From Chitinophaga pinensis (lineage in GTDB: Bacteria; Bacteroidota; Bacteroidia; UKL13-3): a stretch of DNA of 33,059 nucleotides. Shown here one piece after another: positions 428 through 23,722 of this stretch; within the stretch, counting starts at the first letter, position 1; the number at the start of each line of letters is the position of its first letter. A program made the position numbers and the translations under genes. Where the stretch lies: contig CAMCEM010000017.1 of NCBI GenBank assembly GCA_945873755.1, positions 1 through 33,059 on the forward strand, written 5' to 3'. Below the pieces are notes generated by a model. It was given only the letters and a program-made list of their open reading frames with translations, was not told the origin of the DNA and searched no databases.

Positions 428-3400
428 ATGACAAAAATCTACAAAAAACCACGATTAGGACGTTCGTTATTGAACTTACTAATTACAGGCTTGTGTTTGA
501 TGGCATTTAATTATGCCAACGCGCAAGTTTCAACGCTCGATTACTCTACATCCGTGCAGAGCTACACTTCTTTAGCCATAACTGGCGGTACATTGGTTAG
601 CGGTACATCATCAACCGATGATGATACCAACTGGCCTACTAGAAACATCGGATTTACTTTTAACCATGCAGGAACAAATTATACCACTATTGGTATTAGT
701 TCAAATGGTTACATTGTATTTGGTGGTTCTACTACTACTAACTACACTCCCCTTGGTGGCATGTCTAATTGCGTTGCTGCAATAGGTATGGATTTACAAG
801 GAAAAGGATTGACAAATAGTGATATTAGATGGGATACTGTTGGAACTGCGCCTAACCGTGTTTGCGTTATTCAGTGGAGAGATTGGGGAAGATATGGAAC
901 TACTTCTGAAACATATAATTTCCAAATAAGACTTACTGAAACAACCAATGCTATTAATATAGTATACGGACCTGGTATTTATGTAAATTCATATACTCCT
1001 CAAATGGGTATGACTGGTGCTACTACTGCTGATTATAAAATTAGAACTTCAAATACTACTTGGGCAAATAATGCTGCTGCAACTGCCAATAATGCAACTA
1101 TGACTTTATCTTCTACTAACTTTCCTGATACTGGACGTACATTTACTTTTGCAAATTTACCAATGGTATTTAATGGTGTTACTACTTTTCAAACAATTGG
1201 TAATGCTTCATCAGGTTTAAATAATAACCCAATTTTAGCTGCAGTTGCTACTACTACTGGTAACTTAAACCCAAAAGTAGTTTATGCAATGGATTTTAAT
1301 ACTGCTGGTTCAAATAATATTACAACAAACGTTACAGCAGCTAGGGTATTATATACTGGAAACACAAGTACTTTTTCAATGGGTGCAGTAATACGCCAAT
1401 TTGGAGCTGACATTACATCTCCTAGCGGAACATTAGCTTTTACTTCTGCTGGTGATACTTTACGTTCTGGTGCTAACTATTATTGGTTAGTTTACGATAT
1501 TCCTACTACTGCTAATTTAGGCGATACATTAGATGGAACTTGTACAAGTTTTACTGATAGTATCACAAGAACTCCAACTGTAGTTTCTCCTGCTGGTTAT
1601 AGAATTATTTCTGGTCCTTTAAGTGGTGTTTATACCATTGGTGGTTCGGGTTCAAGAAACTATCCTACAATTGCGGCTGCTGTTAGTGATTTAGTAAACG
1701 TTGGTGTGGCTGGTCCTGTTACTTTTAACGTAGCTGCAGGAACTTATACAGGCCAAGTAGTTATTCCTAATAATGTAATTACTGGTGCTTCGGCAGTTAA
1801 TAATATTACTTTTGATGGTGGAAATGGAAATGCTACAACTCGTACTTTAACTTCATCTACAACAAGTGGTGCTACTTTATTATTAAACGGTTGTAAATAT
1901 TATACGTTTAAAAACTTAACCATAACCAATACAGTAAGCGGAGGTGGAAGTGGTGTTGCCATTGTTGGTACTGCTACAAATAATAATGGTTCAAGCAATT
2001 CAATTAGAAATTGTAGAATTTTATTACCAAATGTTGGAACAAGCACTGCTTACGGAATTGTTGTAACTGCTTCTGCTAATGGAAACGGAACTACAGCAAT
2101 GCGTTGCGATTCAATAGTTTTAGATAGTAATACCATTACTGGTGGTACAACTACCAATGGTATTTATTATGGTATAGCTATTTATGGTTCACAAAATAGT
2201 TTATATAACAGAGGAATTGAAGTAACCAATAATACTTTAACTATGGGTTATTATATGGGTTTCCAAATTCAATATATTTATAACCCAATGAAAATTAACT
2301 ATAATAATATTACTATGAGTACTTCATATGGGTATTATGGTATGTACAATTATTATAACCAAAGTACAAATACAACAGTTCCAAATGAGTTTATAGGTAA
2401 TACAATTACTAATTTTGGTGGTTATGGTGCTTATTTATATTTCAATGGTTCTGGAGGAACAACTACTGCTCCATTAAGAATATATAATAATTTTATAAAC
2501 AATGGTACAACTACTTACGGTGGTTTCTATGGTATTTATTTATATTCTACTGGAGTAAGCGAAGTATATCATAACACTACAAGAATGACTTATTCTGGAA
2601 CATCTACAACTTATACAGGTTTTTATTACACAGGAGGAACAAACTGCCAAGTTAAAAATAATTTATTTGCAGTTATGCCAGGAGCAGGTTCAACTGTTCC
2701 TGCATATTTTGCTACAAATCCTACTGGTAACGTAGTAAACTATAACTTATACTATAATGGTGCTAATGCAACTTTACTAAGAAGAGTTAATGCACTAACA
2801 TCTTCAAATTTTAAAACTACTACGGGTGGAGGAGACAGCTCATTCTTTACTACTACTTCTCCTTTTGTAAGTACTACTAATTTTAGCTTACAAAACGGTT
2901 GTTTCGGAAAAGGTGTTGATTTAACTTCATTAGTTCCTGCAGACATTACTCGTTTTACACGTAATGTTCCGCCAGATTTAGGAGCATTTGAATTTCAAGG
3001 TGGAGGGTTAAATGATTTATCAATGGATAGATTAATTACTCCAGCTGCCCCTATTACTTTAGGTTCTCAAGATTTAGTATTTAGAGTAAAAAATATTGGA
3101 ACAAATGCAATTTCATCATTTGATGCTAATTATACTTTAAATTCAGGAACACCAGTTAACCAAACTTGGAGTGGAACTTTAGCCTCTTGCGATACTGTTT
3201 CAGTTACCTTTACAGGAGGTCAACAAATTACTTTAGGTTCTACAAATGCTATTAAAGCATACACTGCTAATCCTAATTCATCATTAGATCCAAACAGAGG
3301 AAACGATACTATTAGTGTAACTTACTTAGCTCCAATGAGCGGTGCTTACACAATTAATCCAGGTGCTGCAGCTAGTGCAACTAACTTCCAATCGTTTGGT

Positions 3401-6400
3401 GCTGCCGATACTGCTTTACAAGCTGGTATTGCTGGTCCAATATACTTTACAGTTGCTGCAGGAACTTATACAGGACAAGTAAGAATTAGAGGTAATATTG
3501 TTGGAGCTTCTGCAATCAATAATATTGTGTTTGATGGTGTTTCATCTTCAACCAGAACTTTAACTGCATCTATAAATCAAGGAGCTACTTTATTATTAGA
3601 CAAATGTAAGTATGTAACTTTCCGTAACTTTACTATTACCAATACTATTTCTGGAAACGGAACTGGTGCTGCTATTATAAGTACTGGAACAGGATACGAA
3701 GGAACTGGATGTGGTTTAGTTAATAATATAATTAACTTACCTAACGTTGGTACTAACACAAGTTATGGTATCAATGTAACAAGTACTGCAAGTGGTTTTG
3801 GCCAAGCAGTTATATCTACCGATTCGTTAGTTATTGATAGTAATACTATTAATAATGGTTATTACGGTATTAACTTATACAACTGTTGTTCAGCTTCTGC
3901 TCTTTATGTTCGTGGAACTAAAATTAGAAACAATACATTAAACAACATCTCATACATGGGTATGTATATTTATTATGTGTACAATGCTATGGATATTTTA
4001 AATAATACCATTAACATGAGCACTACTGGTACAACAGGATATGGATTGTATTATTTTTACAACCAAAATGCATCATCAATTCCAACAAGAATAAATGGTA
4101 ACAAAATTAGCAATGCATTAAATTATGGTATGTATGTTTATTATCCTATTAGTGGTTCTGGTACATTACAATTGTATAACAATGCTATTTTAAATACTCG
4201 TGGAGCAACTGGCTATTCTTGCTATTTATACATGGGAACTGGAACAACTGAAGTATACAACAACTCTTTTGTAAACACTGGTAATACTACCAATGCGCAA
4301 TATGCTGCTTTCTATTACGCAGGTACTTCAGCAAACGTAAATGTTAAAAATAATATTTTTGCAATGACAGGTTCTGGTTCAGGTTTACCAGCTTACTTTG
4401 GAACTAATCCAACTGGAACTAATATTAATTACAATACATATTACAATGCTGCTAGCACTAATTTACTTTACAGAGGTACTACTCTTACTAATTTAAACTA
4501 TAAAACAACTACTGGTGGTGGAGATTCATCTTTCACTAGAACTACATCTCCATTTACTAGCTTAACAAATTTAGCTTTAACTAATGGATGTAGTGGAAAA
4601 GGGGTAACATTATCGAGTATTACTACCGATATATTAGGAAATACTAGAAACACACCTCCAGATATGGGAGCTTATGAGTTTAACGGTAGTTCAAATAACG
4701 ATATAGCAATTGATGCTTTATTAAGTCCTTCTTTCCCAGTAGTAGCTGGAACAAACGATGTAATATTAAGAATAAGAAATGTTGGTGCTAATACAGTATC
4801 TTCATTCGATGCTGCTTACACTATTAATGGTGGAACTCCAGCTTCTTCAACTTGGAGCGGAACTTTAGCAGCTTGCGATACAGTTAGTTTTAATATCGGT
4901 ACTTCATTTACTGTTGTAAATAATGTACAATATGCATTAAAAGCTTACACTTCAAATCCTAACTCTTCATTAGATCCAAACAGAGGAAATGATACAACTA
5001 CTTCAACTGTAGCTACTCCAATGAGTGGAACTTATACAATTGGAGCTACTGCATCTGATTATACTACGTTTAACAATGCTGTTGCAGCATTACAATTACG
5101 TGGTGTTGCTGGTCCTATAACATTTAACGTAAGAACAGGTGTGTATACTGAATCGGTTAATTTACCAACAGTAACAGGTATGTCGGCTACTAATACAGTA
5201 ACTTTCACTTCGTTGGCTAACAACAGAGATTCAGTTAGAATGGAATGGAATTCGACTGCAGGAAATCCGTTTGTATTACAATTTGCTGGTAATTTTTATA
5301 CTGTAAATGCAATGACAATTCGTTCTACTGTGGGAATTACCAATGGTGTTAATATTGCTGGTAATGCTTCGTTCGATACTTTAAGCAATTGTCATGTAAG
5401 AATGCCGGTTTATCTTTCAACTTTTGCTTTCTGTCAATATTCAATTAACGCAAATGGAGTAGGTGGAACAGGTATGGCATTTGTTAATAACAATGTTACA
5501 GGTTCTTATTATGGTGTTTACTATTTTGGAAACAGTGCTAACCGTCCTAGTTATACCTACTTTAAAAACAATACGTTCGATAGTTGTAATTATTCACCAT
5601 TCTATTACATGTATTATACTAAATATACTACTTTTGATGGCAACAACTTTATAGCTAGAGGAACATCTGTTTCAAGTACCAACAATTACATGTATTTCTA
5701 TTACAACGATTCGGCTTATACATTTACTAATAATAAAATTGATTTTGCTAGTGGTGTAACAGCACAGTGGTATAATTACTATAACGCAAGTACTACATTA
5801 AGAAGAGGATTAGTTGCTAATAACAGTGTTGTTGCCGCTACTTCATTAATTTGGTATTGGGGTAATAATGTTACTTCAAATATTGATTTCTATAACAATA
5901 GTTTTAACACGGGTAATGGTTATTTTTATATGGCTAATACTGGTTTAACAAATGTTAGAATTAGAAATAACATATTTGCTTCTACTGGTGCTTATGCTTA
6001 TTACATAACTGCAGCGCCAAATATTGCAACTTTAAATTGCGATTACAACAATTATTTCTCTACTACATCTTTAACACCAATTTATTCTGCAGCAGCAAGA
6101 AGTTTGAATACGCATAGATCACTTTATCCTTTATTTGATAGAATGTCTATTAGTTACAGACCTGCTTATACATCTGCAACGAATTTAACACCTAATGTTA
6201 ACGATACAGCGGTATGGTTAATGAATGGTAGAGGTGATATAGAAGCTAGAGTAACAACTGATATAAATGGAACTGCACGTCCTGCTTCAGTTGTTGATGG
6301 TGCTCCTGATTTAGGTGCTTACAATGTAACTCCAGCTGCAAATACATTAGCTCCAAGAGCTGTTGCTAATCCATTAGCTCCAACTGCTGGAACTAGCCAA

Positions 6401-7357
6401 GTATTTACTTTAGGCTTTGATACTGTTGCTACCATTACTTGGGATGCGTTCACTACTCCTCCTGCTTCTATTGCAGTTCGTCAATATGCTGGTAGAGCTC
6501 CTCAATTAATTGGAACTGTAGCTAATTACATGAATTTTTATACTGATATTCAAGCTCCAACTGGAACTTACTTATACGATATCAAATTAAATTATCGTGA
6601 TAATTGGATGGGAACTATGGGTACTACATTTGGATTTACTGAAGCAGACTTACGTTTAGCTAAGAAAGATGCTGCTACAGCTTGGAGTACAAATACAGGT
6701 AGTGTTGTTGATTCATCATTAAATACTTTAACTGGATCTGGATACACTGAGTTCTCTTGGTTTACTGGTTCTGATTTATTTAACCAATTACCTGTTAAGT
6801 TAACTACTTTCAATGGTAAATTAGTAAATGCTGATGCAATTTTAAATTGGAATACTGCTAGTGAAATAAATTCAAATTCATTTGTAGTAGAACGCTCTAT
6901 TGATGGTGTTAACTTTGAAGGATTAGGAAAAGTGAAAGCTGCTGGTAATTCATCATCGTTAAAATCGTACAAATATGCTGATGTTAATGCTTTGGCTTTA
7001 GTAAATAAATTTAGTGTTGTTTACTACCGTTTAAAAATGGTTGACAACGATGGTTCATTTGAATATTCAAAAACTATTGAAGTTAAAACTGATGCTGATA
7101 CTAAAGAAAGTGTTAAGGTTAATCCAAATCCGTTTACTAACGAGTTAACTGTATCTATTGAAACTTTAGTTGATTCTAAAGCTACATTAGAAGTAGTTGA
7201 TATTAATGGTAAAGTAACATTAACTCAAAACGTAAATGTAACAAAAGGTACATCGGCAATTAATGTTGATGGAATTGAAAAATTAAAGCAAGGTGTTTAC
7301 TTTGTAAGAGTTTCAACTGATTTAGGTACTCAAGTATTTAAAATGGTTAAAAACTAA
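428..7357 (+). CDS. Giant T9SS-secreted beta-helix surface protein
   Basis: A 2309-residue secreted protein, likely delivered to the cell surface or medium by the type IX secretion system. Residues 1-33 form a signal peptide ending near ANAQ. Residues about 34-245 look like a beta-sandwich, followed by a second beta-rich domain to about 395. Three homologous modules then start at residues 399, 971 and 1533, each opening with a SG-x-YTI segment and continuing as Asn/Thr/Tyr/Gly-rich strands with repeated NN-type turns, as in right-handed parallel beta-helices. The first two modules end in PPDLGAFEF and PPDMGAYEF motifs followed by a beta-sandwich linker with SSLDPNRGNDT. Residues from about 2121 (LPVKLTTFNG) form a fibronectin-like domain, and from about 2231 (VNPNPFTNEL) a type A T9SS sorting domain ending KMVKN. 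It stands alone and is followed by a strong terminator. Adhesin or polysaccharide-binding roles are possible; no catalytic residues are identifiable. Confidence 0.93.
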   Translation: MTKIYKKPRLGRSLLNLLITGLCLMAFNYANAQVSTLDYSTSVQSYTSLAITGGTLVSGTSSTDDDTNWPTRNIGFTFNHAGTNYTTIGISSNGYIVFGGSTTTNYTPLGGMSNCVAAIGMDLQGKGLTNSDIRWDTVGTAPNRVCVIQWRDWGRYGTTSETYNFQIRLTETTNAINIVYGPGIYVNSYTPQMGMTGATTADYKIRTSNTTWANNAAATANNATMTLSSTNFPDTGRTFTFANLPMVFNGVTTFQTIGNASSGLNNNPILAAVATTTGNLNPKVVYAMDFNTAGSNNITTNVTAARVLYTGNTSTFSMGAVIRQFGADITSPSGTLAFTSAGDTLRSGANYYWLVYDIPTTANLGDTLDGTCTSFTDSITRTPTVVSPAGYRIISGPLSGVYTIGGSGSRNYPTIAAAVSDLVNVGVAGPVTFNVAAGTYTGQVVIPNNVITGASAVNNITFDGGNGNATTRTLTSSTTSGATLLLNGCKYYTFKNLTITNTVSGGGSGVAIVGTATNNNGSSNSIRNCRILLPNVGTSTAYGIVVTASANGNGTTAMRCDSIVLDSNTITGGTTTNGIYYGIAIYGSQNSLYNRGIEVTNNTLTMGYYMGFQIQYIYNPMKINYNNITMSTSYGYYGMYNYYNQSTNTTVPNEFIGNTITNFGGYGAYLYFNGSGGTTTAPLRIYNNFINNGTTTYGGFYGIYLYSTGVSEVYHNTTRMTYSGTSTTYTGFYYTGGTNCQVKNNLFAVMPGAGSTVPAYFATNPTGNVVNYNLYYNGANATLLRRVNALTSSNFKTTTGGGDSSFFTTTSPFVSTTNFSLQNGCFGKGVDLTSLVPADITRFTRNVPPDLGAFEFQGGGLNDLSMDRLITPAAPITLGSQDLVFRVKNIGTNAISSFDANYTLNSGTPVNQTWSGTLASCDTVSVTFTGGQQITLGSTNAIKAYTANPNSSLDPNRGNDTISVTYLAPMSGAYTINPGAAASATNFQSFGAADTALQAGIAGPIYFTVAAGTYTGQVRIRGNIVGASAINNIVFDGVSSSTRTLTASINQGATLLLDKCKYVTFRNFTITNTISGNGTGAAIISTGTGYEGTGCGLVNNIINLPNVGTNTSYGINVTSTASGFGQAVISTDSLVIDSNTINNGYYGINLYNCCSASALYVRGTKIRNNTLNNISYMGMYIYYVYNAMDILNNTINMSTTGTTGYGLYYFYNQNASSIPTRINGNKISNALNYGMYVYYPISGSGTLQLYNNAILNTRGATGYSCYLYMGTGTTEVYNNSFVNTGNTTNAQYAAFYYAGTSANVNVKNNIFAMTGSGSGLPAYFGTNPTGTNINYNTYYNAASTNLLYRGTTLTNLNYKTTTGGGDSSFTRTTSPFTSLTNLALTNGCSGKGVTLSSITTDILGNTRNTPPDMGAYEFNGSSNNDIAIDALLSPSFPVVAGTNDVILRIRNVGANTVSSFDAAYTINGGTPASSTWSGTLAACDTVSFNIGTSFTVVNNVQYALKAYTSNPNSSLDPNRGNDTTTSTVATPMSGTYTIGATASDYTTFNNAVAALQLRGVAGPITFNVRTGVYTESVNLPTVTGMSATNTVTFTSLANNRDSVRMEWNSTAGNPFVLQFAGNFYTVNAMTIRSTVGITNGVNIAGNASFDTLSNCHVRMPVYLSTFAFCQYSINANGVGGTGMAFVNNNVTGSYYGVYYFGNSANRPSYTYFKNNTFDSCNYSPFYYMYYTKYTTFDGNNFIARGTSVSSTNNYMYFYYNDSAYTFTNNKIDFASGVTAQWYNYYNASTTLRRGLVANNSVVAATSLIWYWGNNVTSNIDFYNNSFNTGNGYFYMANTGLTNVRIRNNIFASTGAYAYYITAAPNIATLNCDYNNYFSTTSLTPIYSAAARSLNTHRSLYPLFDRMSISYRPAYTSATNLTPNVNDTAVWLMNGRGDIEARVTTDINGTARPASVVDGAPDLGAYNVTPAANTLAPRAVANPLAPTAGTSQVFTLGFDTVATITWDAFTTPPASIAVRQYAGRAPQLIGTVANYMNFYTDIQAPTGTYLYDIKLNYRDNWMGTMGTTFGFTEADLRLAKKDAATAWSTNTGSVVDSSLNTLTGSGYTEFSWFTGSDLFNQLPVKLTTFNGKLVNADAILNWNTASEINSNSFVVERSIDGVNFEGLGKVKAAGNSSSLKSYKYADVNALALVNKFSVVYYRLKMVDNDGSFEYSKTIEVKTDADTKESVKVNPNPFTNELTVSIETLVDSKATLEVVDINGKVTLTQNVNVTKGTSAINVDGIEKLKQGVYFVRVSTDLGTQVFKMVKN
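1622..6300 (+). repeat. Three tandem ~570-residue coding modules within the surface protein
   Basis: Modules begin at about 1622, 3338 and 5024, giving periods of 1716 and 1686 bp. Modules 1 and 2 share the segments AAGTYTGQV, TTTGGGDSSF and the SSLDPNRGNDT linker. Module 3 keeps the opening but has diverged in the helix part and ends near 6300 with a PDLGAYNV variant. This is a protein-level duplication; the DNA copies have drifted, so it is not a recent tandem duplication. Confidence 0.8.
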
Positions 7358-14603: not shown

Positions 14604-17600
14604 TTATTCTTCCTCCTCTCCAACTTTTTCCATTTCAATTTTAAAATCGGCGCTGGCATAATAGTTTTTGGTAAACTCACACCAATGGCAATCGGCTTTG
14701 CCACAACCATTGCTAAATTCTTTGGCTTTTATTTTAGCATAAGCAAAATCTATTTGTCCTAAAACTGTTTCAATATCTAATGGCGAAATTGGCACTTTTA
14801 CTTTATTGAAATTATTGGTTTTTTTATCGGGTTCTACAAAGTCAAACTCGCAAGTACGCATTTCCCAATTTTGTGTTTTTGGGTCTTTATCGTAATCCAT
14901 CAATATTTTATAAAATACAGCTTGTCGCCAATAATCACCGCCAAATTTATCTTCAAATTTTGGTTCTTTATTTTCTGCTTCGTCCTTTATTACATTTTCA
15001 GGATTTGGTGATTTAAACTTTTCTCTAGCATTGTCAATATTGCCTGTTTTGTAATCAACTACATTTACAACATTCCCTGCAAATTCTAATTTATCTAACT
15101 TTCCATTTAATGGAACATTTTTTACCACTACATTTTTTAAACTACGTTCTACACTGGTAATTTTATTCCATTCATTGATGTATTTAGTATAATATTTTGG
15201 CAAAAACAGATTGCCATATTCCATGCGAAGTTTAAATTCCTGCGGAGTGAAATTTTGTTCATTTCTGCGCATAAACCATGCAAAATCCTTTAACATTTCT
15301 TCAGCAGTAGCAAAGGTTTTCTCGTCATTGCTGTTCATATTTCGAAACAATTTTTCTAATGCATAATGAACAGCGCTACCAAAAGTCATGCTGGCACTTA
15401 AAGGCGCAGGTACTTTTATTAAACTATTAAAGTAAAACGCAGTAGGGCATTTTAAATACGAACTTAAATGCGTTACACTCAACGTATATTTTTCCAATAA
15501 TTCATTTACAAAATCATTGTTAAATAACTGGTCGGCAGCTTGGTGTTTTTGACTTTGCCAAACTATTAATTCAAAGTTTGTTAAATCATTATCATTAACA
15601 GCGTATTCGCTAGATTTTATTCCTGCAAACTCTTCTAGTTCGGCTAAAAACTGACTTTTTTCTAGCTCTTTGCTATTGTTATCGTGTGTTAAATAACTTA
15701 AGTTCAATTGTTTTTTAGCACGTGTCATTCCTACATAAAACAACCTGCGTTTTTCCTCTAAATCATTTTCCTTATTGATTTCAAATAAAGTATCAGGCAA
15801 TGAATAACTGCTGTGTTTACGTGCTTTTTCCCACACATTGGCATTAATACCAATGATAAAAACATGCTCAAATTCTAATCCTTTTGATGAATGTGTAGTA
15901 ATAAAATTTACACCATCCAAATTATAAATCAAGCGCTGTGATGGCAATTGAATTTTTTCTTTTTCCATGGTGTCAATCGTATTTACCAAATGCTTTAAAG
16001 CAGTTTTGGTATTGCGCACGCATTCACTTTTTACAAAATCGAAAAAAGTATGAAGCAACTGCATATTATAAGTCCGCTCATCACTTTGCAAAGCTTCAAA
16101 AAGCAAACCGCTATCGTTTATTATTTCTTTAATTAAATGCTGTAAAGTTAAATTTGCAGCATTACTTATCCATTTTTCAATCAGTGTAGAAGCATTTACA
16201 AAAAGCTCATTTACTTTTTTATCTTCAATAAAAATGCTTGGTTTAGGGTCAATAAAGTTTTGTTTTAAACCTTGTCGCCAACCAGTTTTTTCCCAAACCA
16301 CATCTTTTTGATTATTCAAATCGTTCATTTTATTAGCAAACCTTGCTAATTCAATGGTTGGTAAACGAAAGAAGTTATAATGCAAAATCTCGAACAACAA
16401 ATATTCGCCACTGTGCGCTTTTGTTAGTTCATGATTGATATAACGTAAAATAGTAACCAATTTTTTGATCAACATTTCATCAAAAGCATTGGCTCTTTTT
16501 CGGGTGTTAATTTGAATATTGTGGTGCTGTAACCAAGCAATTAAATCTTCGGCTTGCTTGTGGTTATGGAACAACACAGCAATTTCATTTAAAGGAACAC
16601 CTTGCTCTTTTAAAGCCAATATTTGCATGGCAATATGCGTACTTTGATGTGTTTCGTTTTGATATGCAAATATGTTTGGTTGTGATGTTAAAGATGCAAA
16701 TTTCTCATTGCTTGCCAGTAATGTTTTATCAGGATTTATCCTTGTTCCATTCTGACTAATTAACGCTTTGCTTGCATCTAAAATTACTTGACTACTCCGG
16801 TAATTTTGCACCAACGAAATGGTTTTTAAATCTTGCGCAGCATATTTATTAATGTAAAAATTGATGTTCTCTACGTTTGCACCTTGAAACCTATAAATAG
16901 ATTGATCATCATCGCCAACGGCAAATACATTGGGTTTTTCGTTGTTCTTTAATAGTTGAAACAACAAATCATTTTGCGCACCACTGGTATCTTGGTATTC
17001 ATCTACCAAAAAGTACAAATACTTTTCTTGGTATTGCGCTAGCATTTCTGGTTTTTGGGTAAATGCTTCAATCACCCATAAAATCATATCAGCAAAATCG
17101 TAACGATTGGTGTGTTTTAACTTGGCTTGATAGGTTTCAAAAGTGGCAGAAGCAGCTCGTAAAACTTGCATTTTCTGAACTTCTTTATCGTAAGCGGCTT
17201 GCTTTAAATCGCCTGCGTTAAACTCTTTGTATTTGCGCTTGTACACAAACTCATCGCGGGTTTTGATGTCTTCTAAATAAGTATCTATTTTGCTACTAAT
17301 TAAAGCTGCGCTCCAGTTTTCGCGCTTCATGGCTTGATACAAATTCAACAGTCTATTTGTTTCATAATAGATATCGCCTGTATAACGTTTCAGCGGATTT
17401 TCAGCGTCAAACTTTTCAATGATTTCATGCACCAAATTTATTTGTTCTAACTCACTAATGGCATCCAAACTTCTTATTCCAAAATAGTCTAAGTTTTCTT
17501 GAATAACGGCATTGCTAAAAGCATGAAAAGTAAAAATATCAATTCTATACGCATCAGTTCCAATAATATCAATGAGGCGTTTGCGCATGGCAATGGTTCC

Positions 17601-17810
17601 TGCATCGGTATAAGTTAAACACAAAATACTTTCGGCTGTGGTGTCGGTTTGGGTTAAAATATTGGCAATTCTACTTGCTAATATTTGTGTTTTTCCTGTT
17701 CCAGGACCTGCTATCACCAGCATAGGACCATCAATTTGTTCTACAGCATTGCGTTGCTCTGCATTCAATTGATTTAATAAATCGGTAAAAGGGATTTTAG
17801 TTTGTGCCAT
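14604..17810 (-). CDS. UvrD/PcrA-family helicase fused to Fe-S PD-(D/E)XK nuclease
   Basis: A DNA helicase-nuclease of about 1068 residues, probably acting in double-strand-break or replication repair. The superfamily 1A helicase motifs are all visible: GPGTGKT near residue 35-41, DEYQDT near 270, GDDDQSIYRFQGAN near 300, THSSKGLEFEHVFI near 640 and FYVGMTRAKKQ near 688. A RecB-type nuclease domain follows from about 770, with the first cysteine in LSSYLKCPTAFYFN (near 785), GKLDKLEF and VVDYKTG (near 917), DYWRQAVFYK, and a terminal C-x4-C-x2-C (CGKADCHWC, near 1035). Four cysteines in this arrangement bind a 4Fe-4S cluster in AddB and Cas4 nucleases. The start is the ATG at 17810; a TTG two codons earlier is possible but not needed. 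It stands alone; no AddB partner is nearby. Confidence 0.93.
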   Translation of the reverse strand: MAQTKIPFTDLLNQLNAEQRNAVEQIDGPMLVIAGPGTGKTQILASRIANILTQTDTTAESILCLTYTDAGTIAMRKRLIDIIGTDAYRIDIFTFHAFSNAVIQENLDYFGIRSLDAISELEQINLVHEIIEKFDAENPLKRYTGDIYYETNRLLNLYQAMKRENWSAALISSKIDTYLEDIKTRDEFVYKRKYKEFNAGDLKQAAYDKEVQKMQVLRAASATFETYQAKLKHTNRYDFADMILWVIEAFTQKPEMLAQYQEKYLYFLVDEYQDTSGAQNDLLFQLLKNNEKPNVFAVGDDDQSIYRFQGANVENINFYINKYAAQDLKTISLVQNYRSSQVILDASKALISQNGTRINPDKTLLASNEKFASLTSQPNIFAYQNETHQSTHIAMQILALKEQGVPLNEIAVLFHNHKQAEDLIAWLQHHNIQINTRKRANAFDEMLIKKLVTILRYINHELTKAHSGEYLLFEILHYNFFRLPTIELARFANKMNDLNNQKDVVWEKTGWRQGLKQNFIDPKPSIFIEDKKVNELFVNASTLIEKWISNAANLTLQHLIKEIINDSGLLFEALQSDERTYNMQLLHTFFDFVKSECVRNTKTALKHLVNTIDTMEKEKIQLPSQRLIYNLDGVNFITTHSSKGLEFEHVFIIGINANVWEKARKHSSYSLPDTLFEINKENDLEEKRRLFYVGMTRAKKQLNLSYLTHDNNSKELEKSQFLAELEEFAGIKSSEYAVNDNDLTNFELIVWQSQKHQAADQLFNNDFVNELLEKYTLSVTHLSSYLKCPTAFYFNSLIKVPAPLSASMTFGSAVHYALEKLFRNMNSNDEKTFATAEEMLKDFAWFMRRNEQNFTPQEFKLRMEYGNLFLPKYYTKYINEWNKITSVERSLKNVVVKNVPLNGKLDKLEFAGNVVNVVDYKTGNIDNAREKFKSPNPENVIKDEAENKEPKFEDKFGGDYWRQAVFYKILMDYDKDPKTQNWEMRTCEFDFVEPDKKTNNFNKVKVPISPLDIETVLGQIDFAYAKIKAKEFSNGCGKADCHWCEFTKNYYASADFKIEMEKVGEEEE

Positions 17811-18279
17811 GTGCAATAATAAATAGGAATGTTGGATTTTGGATGTTGAATTTTGGATAAAAAAATAGCCACAGATTGCACAGAATACACAGATTAATTA
17901 ACCACGGAGTTCACAGAGGTTTTTCACAGAGCACACAATGAAAAGTTGCCACAGATTGCACTGATTACGCTGAATATTTAACCACAGAGTTCACAGAGGT
18001 TTTTCACAGAGAACACAAAGAAAAGTTGCCACAGATTGCACTGATTACACTGAAAAAGTAACCGCAAAGTTCGCAAAGGTATGCGCAAAGAACACAAAGA
18101 AATTTGTCACAGATTGCACTGATTACACTAAAAAATTAAACGCAAAGGTCACTAAGGTTTGCGCAAAGAACACAAAGAAATTTGCTACAGATTGCACTGA
18201 AAAGGTAACCGCAAAGGTCACTAAGGTTTGCGCAAAGAACACAAAGAAAAGTTGCCACAGTTTTAAGAGAAAACAAAGA
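17811..18279. other. Gene-free region dominated by a direct-repeat array
   Basis: Apart from about 57 bp upstream of the helicase-nuclease gene, which contain the short near-repeat GTTGGATTTTGGATGTTGAA, the region is filled by the 70-80 bp repeat array at 17868-18260. Reading frames through the array give Leu/Cys-rich peptides and are artefacts. No promoter with both Bacteroidota elements is seen. Confidence 0.7.
17868..18260. repeat. Tandem array of 70-80 bp direct repeats, five copies plus a remnant
   Basis: Units begin with G[C/T][C/T]ACAGATTGCAC at 17868, 17948, 18028, 18106 and 18184, with a 7-base remnant at 18254; lengths are 80, 80, 78, 78 and 70 bp. Within each unit shorter direct motifs recur (ACAGAG, CACAGA, GCAAAG), giving a nested near-periodic texture. 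The first two units have ACCACGGAGTTCACAGAGG or a close variant, and the later three the ACCGCAAAGGTCAC type. The same repeat recurs in the same orientation at 19807-19966. Similar ACAGAG/GCAAAG intergenic repeats are familiar from many environmental genomes; their function is not known to me. Confidence 0.9.
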
Positions 18280-18795
18280 TTATTTTACAGATAAAGAGTA
18301 TTTAATATAATTATATTTTGGTGGTAAATTTGCAATTGAAATAATACTTAAACTAATACTTATTAGTGCAACGGGAAAAGTAATAAATGCAGCAAACTGG
18401 GTTGCTTCGTTATTAGGAGTATTTTTTTTACTAATGGCATAAATATTAATTGCAGTTGAAAATACAGCAATGGCAGTTGAAAAACGAGCAAATAAATGTT
18501 TTGAATGGTATGAGTTATTATGAAATTGAATAAATTTTAAATCACTGAATAAACAGTTGTTTTCATTTGTTTGATTCAATTGAGATTCAAAAATTAATGA
18601 ATCTTCATTTACTCTTTCTAAAACCAATGTTTTGGAGCTTTTATTTTTAATTTTACAAGTAACTTTTATTGGCAATTTGAACAATTGAACATTAGATATT
18701 TCACCGATTGTATTTTTTGTTAACAGAATACTTTGTTGAGAATTGGAAAGCAGTGAAAGTAATAAAAATGAGAAAAAATAAATTGCTGATTTCAT
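18280..18795 (-). CDS. Unknown small exported/membrane protein, copy 3 of a paralogue cluster
   Basis: I do not recognise this 171-residue protein. It begins with a signal peptide or membrane segment (MKSAIYFFSFLLLSLLSNSQQ), continues as a polar segment of about 90 residues with a SSKTLVLERVNEDSLIF motif, then has two hydrophobic stretches (about FSTAIAVFSTAINIYAI and FAAFITFPVALISISLSII), and ends with a basic tail containing LPPKYNYIKYSLSVK. The same plan and the LLLERVNNDSFFF / LPKNFSTKKWRIYVK motifs occur in the gene at 19254. The start is the ATG at 18795, one base after the upstream gene's stop; a longer frame from 18843 would overlap that gene and destroy the signal peptide. Its 3' end meets the repeat array. 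Confidence 0.75.
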   Translation of the reverse strand: MKSAIYFFSFLLLSLLSNSQQSILLTKNTIGEISNVQLFKLPIKVTCKIKNKSSKTLVLERVNEDSLIFESQLNQTNENNCLFSDLKFIQFHNNSYHSKHLFARFSTAIAVFSTAINIYAISKKNTPNNEATQFAAFITFPVALISISLSIISIANLPPKYNYIKYSLSVK

Positions 18796-18796
18796 A

Positions 18797-19264
18797 TTAA
18801 TAAAAGCTCCATTTGGTTTTGGTGTTGTATATTTTATTAACACTTTTTAACTGATAACTAGTTAATTTTCCAAAAGTAGCACTGGCAATTAAGTAAACTA
18901 ATACATCTCCAGATTGTCCAGCATCCATAAAAAATGCAAAAGAAAGTAAACTTGTTACAAAAGAACCAGTATATAATAATGAGGTTGTATAATTAGAATG
19001 AATTTTAACCAACGAAATACTTTTCACATCAATTTTCAAAGTATCATTTTTTTTTAAAACTGTTAAATAAGGAAATTGATACTTTAAAACATTACCTTTG
19101 ATTTTTATTAATCCACTGTCTGTTTGATATTTAAATATTAATTTTTTGGGTATTTTTATTTCAATTTTATCTAAAGAATTATTCTTTTCTAAAGTAATTG
19201 TTTGTCCATTTAAAATAAAACAATTAGAGGTAAAAAGTATAAAAAAAAGCAATTTATTTAACAT
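18797..19264 (-). CDS. Unknown small exported/membrane protein, copy 2 of the cluster
   Basis: An unrecognised 155-residue protein with an N-terminal signal peptide (MLNKLLFFILFTSNCFILNGQ), a beta-rich polar part with PKKLIFKYQTDSGLIKIKG and LKIDVKSISLVKI, one or two hydrophobic stretches (about LLYTGSFVTSLLSFAFFM and VLVYLIASATFG), and a short end KIYNTKTKWSFY. It overlaps the upstream gene by 11 bp and is one base from the downstream gene, so the three are one transcription unit. Sequence similarity to its neighbours is weak, but size and domain order match; it could be a diverged member or an independent family with the same topology. Confidence 0.72.
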   Translation of the reverse strand: MLNKLLFFILFTSNCFILNGQTITLEKNNSLDKIEIKIPKKLIFKYQTDSGLIKIKGNVLKYQFPYLTVLKKNDTLKIDVKSISLVKIHSNYTTSLLYTGSFVTSLLSFAFFMDAGQSGDVLVYLIASATFGKLTSYQLKSVNKIYNTKTKWSFY

Positions 19265-19763
19265 AAATCCTCCATTTTTTTGTGCTAAAATTTTTTGGTA
19301 GTTTATTTATTAATGATACCGAAGTTATAATAGAAATTGCACTTATCGGGACACCAAAGATAATAGCTAAAAATTTAGTTGGATCACCTGCATCAGTTGA
19401 TTGGTGAAAAAAACCACCAATAGTTAGTGGTGTTACATACACTGCCATGAAAGTAAAAAATGTGAATGCTGATTGAACTATAAAATCACTTTTTTTAGGA
19501 AAATTAATTACTGAAATATCACTTAAAGTGCAATCATAATTTTGTGGTTGATTGTAATATTTTTTGAAGAAAAAACTGTCATTATTTACTCTTTCAAGTA
19601 ATAGTTTTTTAAATCCTACATTTTTAAAATTGATGTTAACAACAGCAGGTAATTTAATTGACTTTAAATTTCCATTACTAATTTTTTCTATGATTAGTGT
19701 TTGCTGCCCATTGCAAAGCAAAAGAAAAACGGAAAAAACACATGATGAAAATAGTTTTAACAT
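19254..19763 (-). CDS. Unknown small exported/membrane protein, copy 1 of the cluster
   Basis: An unrecognised 169-residue protein: signal peptide (MLKLFSSCVFSVFLLLCNGQQ), a polar beta-rich segment with GFKKLLLERVNNDSFFFKKY, then two hydrophobic segments (about FTFFTFMAVYVTPLTIGGFF and FLAIIFGVPISAISIITSVSLI), and a basic C-terminus LPKNFSTKKWRIYVK. It is the first gene of the three-gene unit. The LERVN-x-DS motif is shared with 18280 and, as LNAVKNDTFYF, with the broken copy at 23507. The predicted topology places the beta segment outside the cytoplasmic membrane; whether the C-terminal helices are retained in the membrane is inference. It lies about 40 bp from the second repeat array. Confidence 0.75.
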   Translation of the reverse strand: MLKLFSSCVFSVFLLLCNGQQTLIIEKISNGNLKSIKLPAVVNINFKNVGFKKLLLERVNNDSFFFKKYYNQPQNYDCTLSDISVINFPKKSDFIVQSAFTFFTFMAVYVTPLTIGGFFHQSTDAGDPTKFLAIIFGVPISAISIITSVSLINKLPKNFSTKKWRIYVK

Positions 19764-19806
19764 AATTCAAATATAATTATGTATTGGATAAAACCTAACA
19801 AAAGTT

Positions 19807-19966
19807 GCCACATATTACACAGAAAAAGTTTCCGCAAAGTTCGCAAAGGTTTGCGCAAAGTACACAAAGGAAAGTTGCTACAGATTGCACTAAAAAGGTA
19901 ACCGCAAAGATCACAAAGGTTTTCGCAAAGCTCGCAAAGAAGAGCTGCCACTGATTTCACAGATTT
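19807..19966. repeat. Second copy of the 70-bp direct-repeat array, two units plus a partial
   Basis: Units begin at 19807 and 19877 (70 bp each) with a partial unit at 19947-19966. They match the later units of the 17868-18260 array, with CCGCAAAG, TTCGCAAAGGTTTGCGCAAA and a terminal CACAAAG. The orientation is the same as the first array, so the three-gene cassette is bracketed by direct repeats. Confidence 0.88.
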
Positions 19967-20048: not shown

Positions 20049-20633
20049 TTACTCAATAAATTCAATTAATGGAGTTTTATCAATATATGTTTCTCCATTT
20101 GTTTGCTTGTAAACAATTGTAAATTGATGTTTTAAAGATGAAGTAGGTTTTGCATTTAACTTTAACCTTAAATAAAACAGTGAAGGATTAGGTTTTGATT
20201 GCATGTATTCAATCAAATTTACTTGGCTACCAACATTAGTTACTACTGTAAAATACTTTGAAATACTTTCATTAATACCTATTGAACTATCAAATAAATA
20301 AGAACTGAAAATTTGAATACTATCTATTTTTTCTGAAGAGCCATAACTACCATCTATTGCACATTTGCATGCATAAGCATTGGTGAAAAATAAGTTCGAA
20401 AAATCAAATTGTTGTTTACATTCACTGTAGTATGTTTTGTTAAATGTTAAATCTATGTAATATTCCTCTAAATTTACTTTTGCAGTAGAATCTAATGAAC
20501 CAGTTTGACCCATTTTGTAACCTTTAGCAGAAAATCCATTTACATCAAAATATTTTTTTACCTCATCACAATTACAACAACTGTATATGTTTAGGGCGAT
20601 GGAAACTGCAAAAATCCAAAATACTTTTTTCAT
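20049..20633 (-). CDS. Probable lipoprotein of unknown function
   Basis: An unrecognised 194-residue protein. The chosen start, ATG at 20633, gives a clean lipoprotein signal (MKKVFWIFAVSIALNIYSCC) with Cys at residue 19 or 20; a longer frame from 20711 adds 26 residues that contain a second hydrophobic run and looks wrong. The mature part is mostly beta-rich and polar, with ISKYFTVVTNVGSQVNL and a C-terminal HQFTIVYKQTNGETYI segment. Several cysteines (FFTNAYACKCAIDGS) may form disulfides. It is divergent from hrpB with 87 bp between the starts. Confidence 0.75.
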   Translation of the reverse strand: MKKVFWIFAVSIALNIYSCCNCDEVKKYFDVNGFSAKGYKMGQTGSLDSTAKVNLEEYYIDLTFNKTYYSECKQQFDFSNLFFTNAYACKCAIDGSYGSSEKIDSIQIFSSYLFDSSIGINESISKYFTVVTNVGSQVNLIEYMQSKPNPSLFYLRLKLNAKPTSSLKHQFTIVYKQTNGETYIDKTPLIEFIE

Positions 20634-20720
20634 ATTTAATTTATTAAAAACAATATAAACAAATTCAAGTATAATAAATAAATCAGTTTTCATTTCGTTA
20701 TTCTTGCACAAAATTTAAAA

Positions 20721-23210
20721 TTGAACTTCAATGCATTCCAATATCAGTTACCCGTTGCGGATATTATAGACGAGGTAAAAAACCATTTAGCTAATAATAA
20801 TACTTTAATAGTAAATGCGCCACCTGGCGCGGGAAAAAGTACGCTTTTGCCTTTGACTTTATTGGATGAAAATTGGTTAGCTGACAAAAAAATTATTATG
20901 TTGGAACCACGAAGGTTAGCTGCTAAAACCATTGCCACCCGCATGGCAGAACTTTGGGGCGATAAAGTGGGTGAAACCATTGGTTACCGCATCAGGTTTG
21001 AAAATAGAGTAAGCGCACAAACAAAAATTGAAGTAGTAACTGAGGGTATTTTAACTCGCATGTTACATACCGATAATGCGCTAGAAAATGTGGGTTTGGT
21101 AATTTTTGACGAATTCCATGAACGCAGTTTATTTGCCGATGTAGCCATGGCTTTATGCCGAGAAGCACAACAAGTTTTAAGGCCTGACTTGCGCATGATG
21201 GTGATGTCGGCTACGCTGAACATGCCACAATTAACAGCTTTGTTAAATTGCCCTGTGGCAGTAAGTGAAGGAAAACAATATCCTGTTGAAGTAAAATATG
21301 TAGGCGAAGGAGATGCTTTTTTATTGCCCGAAACTACTGCTCAAGTAATAGTAAAAGCAGTAAAAGAAAATGAAGGCGATGTATTGGTATTTTTGCCTGG
21401 CGAAGGTGAAATACGCAAATGTGCTGAATTATTGAAAGGTAAATTATTGGACTTTGCCATTCATCCGTTATACGGACAATTACCTCAACGGGAGCAATTT
21501 GCAGCCATTATGCCTAATAAAAATGGCAAAAGAAAAGTAGTTTTAGCCACTTCCATTGCCGAAACCAGTTTAACTATTGAAGGGGTGAAAATAGTAATTG
21601 ATTCAGGATTTGCACGTGTTTCGAAGTTTGATCCTAAGTCGGGATTATCACGATTAGAAACCGTTCAAATTACCAAAGATTCAGCTGACCAACGGGCTGG
21701 ACGAGCAGGAAGGTTAAGTGCTGGAGTTTGTTATAGAATGTGGACCAAAGCCAATCAGGAACGAATGATTGAGCACCGAATTCCTGAAATAATGGAAGCT
21801 GATTTAGCTGCTTTGGTGCTCGACATGGCTAAGTGGGGAATTAGTAATTTGAACCAACTCACTTGGTTAAGTCCGCCTCCAAAAGCAGCGGTAATGCAAG
21901 CTGTAGATGTGTTGACTAATTTGAATGCTTTGGACATGAACAATCGCATTACAGAACATGGAAAAGAAATTCATCAGCTACCCTGTCACCCCAGAATAGC
22001 GCACATGCTTTTAAAAGCAAAACAAGACAATGCCATTGCACTAGCAACTGACATAGCAGCCATTTTAGAAGAACGAGATCCATTGCCAAAAGACAGTGGA
22101 ATAGATATTAATTTACGCATAGAAGCATTGAGGCGAAGCCGCCAAAATAATAGTGCAGGCAATAGATTTGGAAGAATAGAAAAGGTAGCAGAATCGTACC
22201 GAAAAATGCTGAACCAAGAAGCCGAAAACGGTCCGGTTGATGACCATGAAACAGGTTTGTTATTGGCTTATACATATCCGGAACGCATTGCTTTTGCAAG
22301 GCCAGGAAATAATGCACAGTTTCAATTAGCAAACGGAAAAATAGCAGCCATTGGGCATAGAGATAATTTGGCAAATGAACCTTGGCTTGCTGTGGCTCAT
22401 ATTGATACCAGAGATGGTTTGGGTAAAATATTTATGGCATCGCCATTGAATCCAAAAGATTTATTGCCATTGGTAAAAGAGCGTGAAGTAATTACTTGGG
22501 ATACCCGAAAAGGTGGTTTAATTGCTACTAAAGATTTAAGAATTGGCAGCATTGTTTTGCAATCGAAACCATTGGCAGCGCCAAGCGAAGAACATTTGGT
22601 TGCAGCTATTTGCACAGCAATAAAAAATGAAGGCGAAGCATTATTGAATTTTGATGAGGCTTTTACCCAATTACAAAATAGAATTTTGTGTGTATGCAAA
22701 TGGAATCAATACAAGGATTGGCCAGACGTTAGCACCGATGAATTATTATTAAACAACATGGATTGGTTAGGTTTTTATTTGCCCAAAGTAAAACGACCTG
22801 ATGATTTAAAGAAAATAAATTTGAGTGAAGCATTGCTTCAATATTTAACTTGGGATCAGCAGCAAACTTTAAACGCGTTAGCACCTTCAAAAATAAATGT
22901 GCCTAGTGGTTCTAATATTGGCATTGAATATTTGGCAAATGGAGAAACACCAATCCTATCTGTACGCTTGCAAGAAGTATTTGGAATGGCTGATACGCCA
23001 ACGATTAATAACAGTAAAATACCTTTGGTGTTGCACTTATTATCGCCAGGATTTAAACCAGTGCAAGTAACTTCCGACTTAAGAAGTTTTTGGAACAATA
23101 CTTATTTTGAAGTAAAAAAAGAATTGAAGCGAAGGTATCCAAAACACGCTTGGCCTGATGATCCGTGGACGGAAAAAGCGGTGGCAAAGGGCGGCCCGAG
23201 GAGGTTTTAG
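20721..23210 (+). CDS. hrpB: ATP-dependent RNA helicase HrpB
   Basis: A DEAH/RHA-type helicase of 829 residues, close to the ~810-820 typical of HrpB; its cellular role is poorly defined. Motifs: PPGAGKST at residues 34-41, FDEFHERS near 130, MSATLN near 160, FLPGEGEI near 225, TSIAETSLTIEGV near 280 and QRAGRAGR near 323, then the helicase-associated domain and the HrpB-specific C-terminus ending KRRYPKHAWPDDPW and GGPRRF. No ATG lies near the N-terminus; translation most likely starts at TTG 20721 (NFNAFQYQLPVADII), because the upstream frame contains no NTG codon before a stop at 20679. A near-consensus TATTCTTG at 20699-20706 would leave a very short leader. It converges on the broken gene at 23219. 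Confidence 0.93.
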   Translation: MNFNAFQYQLPVADIIDEVKNHLANNNTLIVNAPPGAGKSTLLPLTLLDENWLADKKIIMLEPRRLAAKTIATRMAELWGDKVGETIGYRIRFENRVSAQTKIEVVTEGILTRMLHTDNALENVGLVIFDEFHERSLFADVAMALCREAQQVLRPDLRMMVMSATLNMPQLTALLNCPVAVSEGKQYPVEVKYVGEGDAFLLPETTAQVIVKAVKENEGDVLVFLPGEGEIRKCAELLKGKLLDFAIHPLYGQLPQREQFAAIMPNKNGKRKVVLATSIAETSLTIEGVKIVIDSGFARVSKFDPKSGLSRLETVQITKDSADQRAGRAGRLSAGVCYRMWTKANQERMIEHRIPEIMEADLAALVLDMAKWGISNLNQLTWLSPPPKAAVMQAVDVLTNLNALDMNNRITEHGKEIHQLPCHPRIAHMLLKAKQDNAIALATDIAAILEERDPLPKDSGIDINLRIEALRRSRQNNSAGNRFGRIEKVAESYRKMLNQEAENGPVDDHETGLLLAYTYPERIAFARPGNNAQFQLANGKIAAIGHRDNLANEPWLAVAHIDTRDGLGKIFMASPLNPKDLLPLVKEREVITWDTRKGGLIATKDLRIGSIVLQSKPLAAPSEEHLVAAICTAIKNEGEALLNFDEAFTQLQNRILCVCKWNQYKDWPDVSTDELLLNNMDWLGFYLPKVKRPDDLKKINLSEALLQYLTWDQQQTLNALAPSKINVPSGSNIGIEYLANGETPILSVRLQEVFGMADTPTINNSKIPLVLHLLSPGFKPVQVTSDLRSFWNNTYFEVKKELKRRYPKHAWPDDPWTEKAVAKGGPRRF

Positions 23211-23218
23211 ATTTTAGT

Positions 23219-23722
23219 TTAATGATTAAGAGTGAAATGGAATTTTTTACTTTTTATTTTTTTAGGTAATTTGCTTTTAAAAATAGAGTAAATAATCAAT
23301 GGTGGAACGGAAAAAGCTAAACCAACTTTCCCCATTAGTTTTAATTCAGGTTCACCTGCTATCAAAAACAATAATGAATAAAATGCACTTGTAAAACCTA
23401 AAGCTCCAAATATAATGGCTCCAGCTTGATTCAAATTTTGATTATAAACATTGAATTTTAAGTAATTATTTTGGTTATAGTTTACTTTATATTTCTTTCC
23501 ATTTTTTTAATTCTCAAAGTAAAAAGTGTCATTCTTTACAGCATTTAATTTTAATTCTTTTTTGTCACCAGTGTTTAGCTTACAAAAAACTTTAATTGGA
23601 ATAAAATAATGTAAAGTGTCTTTATTGTTATTGAATGCAATTATTTGCTGAGCAATGGTTGATTGGAAACCGAACGACAATAACAAAACAATAATTAACC
23701 TTATCGTAAACAAACATATCAA
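23219..23722 (-). pseudogene. Fourth relative of the small exported/membrane family, broken by an in-frame stop
   Basis: Two open stretches, 23722-23507 and 23506-23219, are in the same frame and separated only by one TAA (23507-23509). Read through, they give 167 codons, matching the 155-171 residues of the genes at 18280-19763. The first half has a signal peptide ending STIAQQ and the motif LKLNAVKNDTFYF, equivalent to LLLERVNNDSFFF. The second half has two hydrophobic segments (about AGAIIFGALGFTSAFYSLLFLIAG and VGLAFSVPPLIIYSIF) and the basic end KLPKKIKSKKFHFTLNH, equivalent to KLPKNFSTKKWRIYVK. A single nonsense change or a sequencing error would explain it. The N-terminal half could still be made as a 71-residue secreted fragment. 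Confidence 0.78.

Follow-up and report, generated by a model that had tools for sequence, protein, structure and literature searches.

Three diverged tandem genes for putative exported barrel-and-hairpin proteins represent an unnamed membrane protein family of Bacteroidia

Introduction

Between two helicase genes of a freshwater Bacteroidota genome lie three short genes in close succession, raising the question of whether their products form one protein family and, if so, whether they work together. The DNA analysed, referred to here as the window, is the whole stretch of 33,059 nt from Chitinophaga pinensis GCA_945873755.1 (contig CAMCEM010000017.1; lineage Bacteroidota; Bacteroidia; UKL13-3). 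An earlier note on this DNA had described three overlapping or abutting reading frames of 155-171 residues as an unrecognised family of small exported membrane proteins; all three were present on the minus strand, at 169, 155 and 171 residues. The cluster and its surroundings comprise the following features.

19254-19763, minus strand: copy 1 (P0003), 169 aa; predicted signal peptide, small beta barrel, hydrophobic hairpin and C-terminal strand
18797-19264, minus strand: copy 2 (P0002), 155 aa; plan shared with copy 1, divergent orthologous group
18280-18795 (ATG at 18795), minus strand: copy 3 (P0001), 171 aa; plan shared with copy 1
19254-19264, minus strand: overlap of copy 1 stop and copy 2 start, 11 nt
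14604-17816: UvrD-type helicase gene flanking the cluster, named from sequence reading
20049-20711: lipoprotein gene between the cluster and the HrpB-type gene
20721-23210: HrpB-type helicase gene beyond the lipoprotein gene, named from sequence reading
23231-23701, minus strand: fourth copy, pseudogene, profile match E 1e-35

Results

Layout of the cluster

Copies 2 and 3 are separated by 1 nt. In each copy an N-terminal hydrophobic stretch ending in N-x-Q is followed by a polar segment, two hydrophobic segments and a basic tail, bearing out the common plan that had been proposed for the three proteins, and the motifs reported for copies 1 and 3 are present as LERVNNDS and LERVNEDS, with tails starting LPK and LPP, respectively. 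The description as unrecognised also held, with no recognised match in Pfam or NCBIfam; searches of these two databases and of PDB sequences gave chance-level matches only, scattered across unrelated families, and a literature search on the family returned nothing relevant.

The fourth copy, overlooked in the earlier note, sits between the HrpB and pyruvate dehydrogenase E1 beta genes, contains one in-frame TAA (23507-23509) and lacks an in-frame ATG just upstream. Its intact counterpart in G002 is likewise located 3' of HrpB (L041:6513-7040), and similar counterparts are found in G003 and G007.

Other features of the window include imperfect direct repeats of about 70-80 nt (CACAGATTGCACTGATTACACTG.. 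and ACCGCAAAGTTCGCAAAGG..) on both flanks of the cluster (17861-18270 and 19797-19963), of which long copies occur only around the cluster within this genome and short fragments elsewhere, and a repetitive exported protein of 2309 residues with a C-terminal sorting-like domain (428-7357). The lipoprotein encoded at 20049-20711 has a sub-threshold DUF5034 match (20.9 bits against a cut-off of 25), and its gene does not adjoin the cluster in G001.

Homology among the copies

Copies 1 and 3 share 33% identity (BLASTP, E 9e-22) and are, judged by sequence, clear paralogues. Copy 2 gave nothing meaningful against copies 1 and 3 by BLASTP (E 0.02 and 0.5), in agreement with the previous description of it as alike in size and topology more than in sequence, and emerged as a homologue by profile-profile comparison, in which its profile matched the copy 1/3 profile over 150 columns (hhalign probability 96, E 3e-9). 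With signal peptides removed, to exclude a match due only to a shared signal peptide or hydrophobic composition, the probability was 87.5 (E 4e-6, 130 columns). The homology of copy 2 is thus well supported at the sequence level over the whole mature protein. The beta domain does not suffice to support it, as beta domains by themselves gave a probability of only 36 over 29 columns (column shuffles, n=30, reached at most 4.6). In a maximum-likelihood tree, whose deeper joins are in part uncertain, with long branches involved, copies 1, 2 and 3 each grouped with their own orthologues in three separate clades (support 99-100; 100/99 for the copy 2 clade).

Conservation and turnover within the genus

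The cluster is kept, in the same order, in three further species of the genus (G001, G005 and G008 hold copy 1 orthologues), with orthologue identities across the three other genomes of 65-68% for copy 1, 44-46% for copy 2 and 71-72% for copy 3. Between orthologues, dN/dS of the three genes was 0.14-0.5 (0.14-0.31 for copy 1 and about 0.18 for copy 3), and all three are therefore protein-coding genes under purifying selection. The cluster is nevertheless dispensable within the genus, since in G002 the UvrD-HrpB gap spans about 300 bases and contains no copy, and in G009 a profile search found no match to the family. At the other extreme, G007 has at least eight matches, including a six-gene array adjoining UvrD. 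Pseudogenes of the family occur in the window, G003 and G027.

A family distributed through Bacteroidia

A reading of the cluster as a local or categorically odd family was not borne out. A contig scan found no match with copy 1 alone and six loci when aligned close relatives served as the query; at least two further members lie outside the window in the same genome (G000:C47:18815-19339 and G000:C45:19360-19839), and plasmids gave no match to copy 1. Iterated profiles at E 0.001 found matches in half of 64 genomes of the taxonomic family and in 28 of 100 sampled genera of the class Bacteroidia, some of the weak class-wide matches being partial and possibly false. None of ten distant relatives scanned reached a Pfam or NCBIfam cut-off.

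The class-wide relatives have a common plan. A signal peptide ending in AQ or similar leads into a beta domain, followed by a hairpin of two hydrophobic helices and by a basic strand at the C-terminus, in which a K-x-x-K-W-x-I/L pattern recurs even in distant members (KKWRIYVK in copy 1). The Gln after the predicted cut site, which like the signal peptide was assigned by eye, is invariant in two alignments (A7 and A8) and nearly so in a third (A9), and Q20 of copy 1 is conserved without exception in 28 diverse members. For the beta domain, the copy 1/3 type and 18 distant relatives gave a match (hhalign 94, E 1.5e-7; column shuffles reached at most 1.4), although these relatives had been found with a profile containing the window proteins and the choice of rows was not fully independent. 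The beta domain of the copy 2 type alone scored 2.3 against the class-wide relatives, and is linked to them through the copy 1/3 type. Class-wide proteins such as those at L106:1501-2064, L138:1501-1965 and L132:4803-5345 resemble the window proteins in size and plan, and differ in being usually single genes with varied neighbours and 15-20% identity to them. By these profile matches, the window genes are a genus-level tandem expansion of an unnamed family spread through Bacteroidia.

Predicted structure

An AlphaFold2 model of copy 1, built from an alignment of 11 sequences, was of moderate confidence (pLDDT 62, pTM 0.39) and placed strands at residues 22-27, 33-37, 40-46, 50-60, 63-67, 76-79, 83-87 and 164-168. 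Its elements are as follows.

19707-19763, minus strand: signal peptide, residues 1-19 (..LLCNG/QQ), helix 2-16 in the model
19503-19700, minus strand: beta domain, residues 22-87, Sm/Hfq/SH3-like small barrel in the AlphaFold2 model
19407-19487, minus strand: first hydrophobic helix, residues 93-119, from the model and hydropathy
19308-19382, minus strand: second hydrophobic helix, residues 128-152, from the model and hydropathy
19260-19274, minus strand: basic C-terminal strand, residues 164-168, within KKWRIYVK, from the model

The best matches to the strand region were Hfq, LSm and a designed SH3-like barrel (Foldseek probability 0.94-0.99), at Foldseek E values that are not significant (0.1-0.5) and VIA Z of 6-7, below the level that stands out. 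A small-barrel fold is likely for the modelled beta domain. Hits linking the hairpin with ABC transporters, cytochrome complexes and other helix pairs were attributed to common helix packing and disregarded. Structure prediction had been suggested as a check on a fold common to the copies, and it was informative for copy 1; the copy 2 model is unreliable (pLDDT 39) and has the same order of elements.

Membrane placement

In each of the 54 members examined, Lys and Arg are commoner on the barrel side and tail taken together than in the loop of the hairpin, averaging 2.9 in 15 residues on the barrel side, 4.0 in up to 18 residues of the tail and 1.1 in about 10 residues of the loop. Because the flanks are longer than the loop, net charges are a better guide than these counts, and their means are +1.9, +2.9 and -0.1, respectively. 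The hairpin helices have mean Kyte-Doolittle values of 1.1-2.7.

For inner-membrane helices, the usual expectation is the positive-inside rule. A cut signal peptide implies that the barrel should be periplasmic, and a periplasmic barrel with an inner-membrane hairpin would therefore put the positive side outside, contrary to the rule. Three readings could account for this: an exception to the rule in this family, a hairpin placed in the outer membrane, or a first helix that does not serve as a cleaved signal peptide.

Gene coupling and operon context

Copy-2-type genes were found directly 3' of a copy-1-like gene, with the start overlapping its stop, in all eight loci found, the overlap being 11 nt in seven of them and 4 nt in the eighth. 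The overlapping pair occurs in six genomes and in two unrelated chromosomal places, either beside UvrD or, in G001 and G002, beside the pyruvate dehydrogenase E1 beta gene. The strongest argument for joint function is this retention of the overlap, a circumstantial one. The complexes of non-identical subunits proposed earlier are to that extent, and no further, favoured by the three orthologous groups and the constant stop/start overlap.

Neighbours of the homologues vary across Bacteroidia, and in most cases a relative stands alone, with housekeeping genes next to it. A recurring arrangement, seen in L051 (G004), L052 (G006) and L133 (G000:C45), consists of a lipoprotein gene and a gene for a probable outer-membrane barrel, so labelled from sequence only, followed by one or two members; the operon at L133:4309-6015 thus encodes a lipoprotein, a probable outer-membrane barrel and a barrel-and-hairpin protein. 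The whole set is repeated in tandem in L090, and in L054, L085 and L092 the outer-membrane barrel gene comes first and members follow. The outer-membrane barrel proteins of these loci are mutually related (E 0.03 to 1e-68, most pairs below 1e-3), as are the lipoproteins, and the proteins of both kinds that were scanned gave no Pfam match. The loci probably share descent and count as few independent events. In the window no outer-membrane barrel gene adjoins the cluster, and kinship of the lipoprotein at 20049-20711 with the operon lipoproteins of the relatives was unsupported (best E 0.008 over 19 residues).

Across several genera, a single-copy member adjoins the same large gene, encoding a protein of about 400 aa (MKEELLHFIW..), as in L132:4803-6623, L097, L099, L108, L111 and L114.

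Discussion

Proposed role and alternatives

The best overall explanation, to which we give an even chance, is that the cluster encodes three diverged subunits of one exported membrane protein family that form a mixed envelope complex. Its parts differ in strength: that the three belong to one family with a shared plan is very probable, and export of the barrel is probable; assembly of unlike subunits into a mixed complex falls a little short of an even bet, and partnership with an outer-membrane protein is doubtful. Each product would carry a Sec signal peptide cut before Gln, leaving a five-stranded small barrel of the Sm/Hfq/SH3 type in the periplasm, anchored by the hairpin of two hydrophobic helices, with the basic C-terminal strand probably packing back onto the barrel. 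Small barrels often assemble via edge strands, and translation of the overlapping genes together could allow unlike subunits to assemble side by side in this way. The complex would assist other proteins of the envelope. Outer-membrane barrels and lipoproteins are the probable ones, because members elsewhere share operons with genes for such proteins.

The copies could instead have three independent single-protein functions in a birth-and-death tandem family, their adjacency reflecting recent duplication and not a joint complex. The range of copy number, the six-gene array and the pseudogenes described above agree with this reading, which is nevertheless rather unlikely, as the overlapping pair is kept in six genomes at two unrelated places and the tree indicates orthologous groups that have long been separated and are not fresh duplicates. 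Toxin, defence or signalling roles had also been raised in the earlier note, and fast divergence and tandem variation could fit a conflict system, whether of exported toxins or immunity proteins or of membrane effectors in defence. PADLOC, run on seven proteins, gave no convincing match common to the copies; its weak matches, PDC-S71 (E 7e-4) and PycTM (E 0.004), are to copy 3 only, with none in the six other proteins, and coincide with or span the hydrophobic stretch. With no defence or toxin genes nearby, purifying selection on the genes and most relatives standing alone by housekeeping genes, a conflict role is highly improbable; a signalling role likewise lacks convincing support.

The charge distribution raises another alternative, in which the hairpin would be inserted into the outer membrane from the periplasmic side, forming rings or belts around outer-membrane proteins in a manner like that of SlyB in its working and unrelated to it by descent. 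This would account for positive charge on both outer flanks of the hairpin with a neutral loop, and it agrees with the exported barrel and the operons with probable outer-membrane barrel proteins. It also has a precedent in Proteobacteria, where SlyB assembles into ring-shaped transmembrane complexes enclosing outer-membrane proteins (PMC13067283). The helices, however, are so hydrophobic that arrest in the inner membrane would be expected, the lipobox is absent, glycine-zipper models are unmatched and the window cluster has no outer-membrane barrel gene alongside, making this placement distinctly improbable. Less probable still is a combination with the mixed complex of the preferred reading, in which co-translated non-identical small barrels would form a mixed ring whose hairpins embrace an outer-membrane barrel, as a Bacteroidota answer to SlyB with a different fold order.

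Comparison with known systems

Sm, LSm and Hfq proteins are the best fold matches, resembling the predicted strand order of copy 1 residues 40-87, but the window proteins differ from them in being putatively exported and membrane-bound, and an RNA role is not expected outside the cytoplasm; LSM and Hfq profiles had no match to family members (Pfam, E 1). SlyB and other two-helix lipoproteins with glycine zippers likewise combine a hydrophobic hairpin with a beta domain in the envelope and have a possible link to outer-membrane proteins, whereas the window proteins are not lipoproteins and have the reverse order, with the beta domain before the hairpin. Cys is missing from the lipobox site in copies 2 and 3, the LLLC of copy 1 does not fit [LVI][ASTVI][GAS]C, and a search of 28 members against Pfam at E 1 matched no glycine-zipper model. 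The YgdI/YgdR (DUF903) lipoproteins are exported SH3-like small barrels and have this in common with the window proteins, with a lipid anchor in place of the hairpin; Pfam scans gave no match of family members to the DUF903 model.

Implications for the family

The family occurs in many sampled genera of Bacteroidia; neither Pfam nor NCBIfam contains a model of it, and no function is known for it. In the window it appears in its fastest-changing form, where the coupling of tandem paralogues through gene overlap can be put to the test, and the recurring operon of a lipoprotein, a probable outer-membrane barrel and a barrel-and-hairpin protein provides a first lead to the role of the family.
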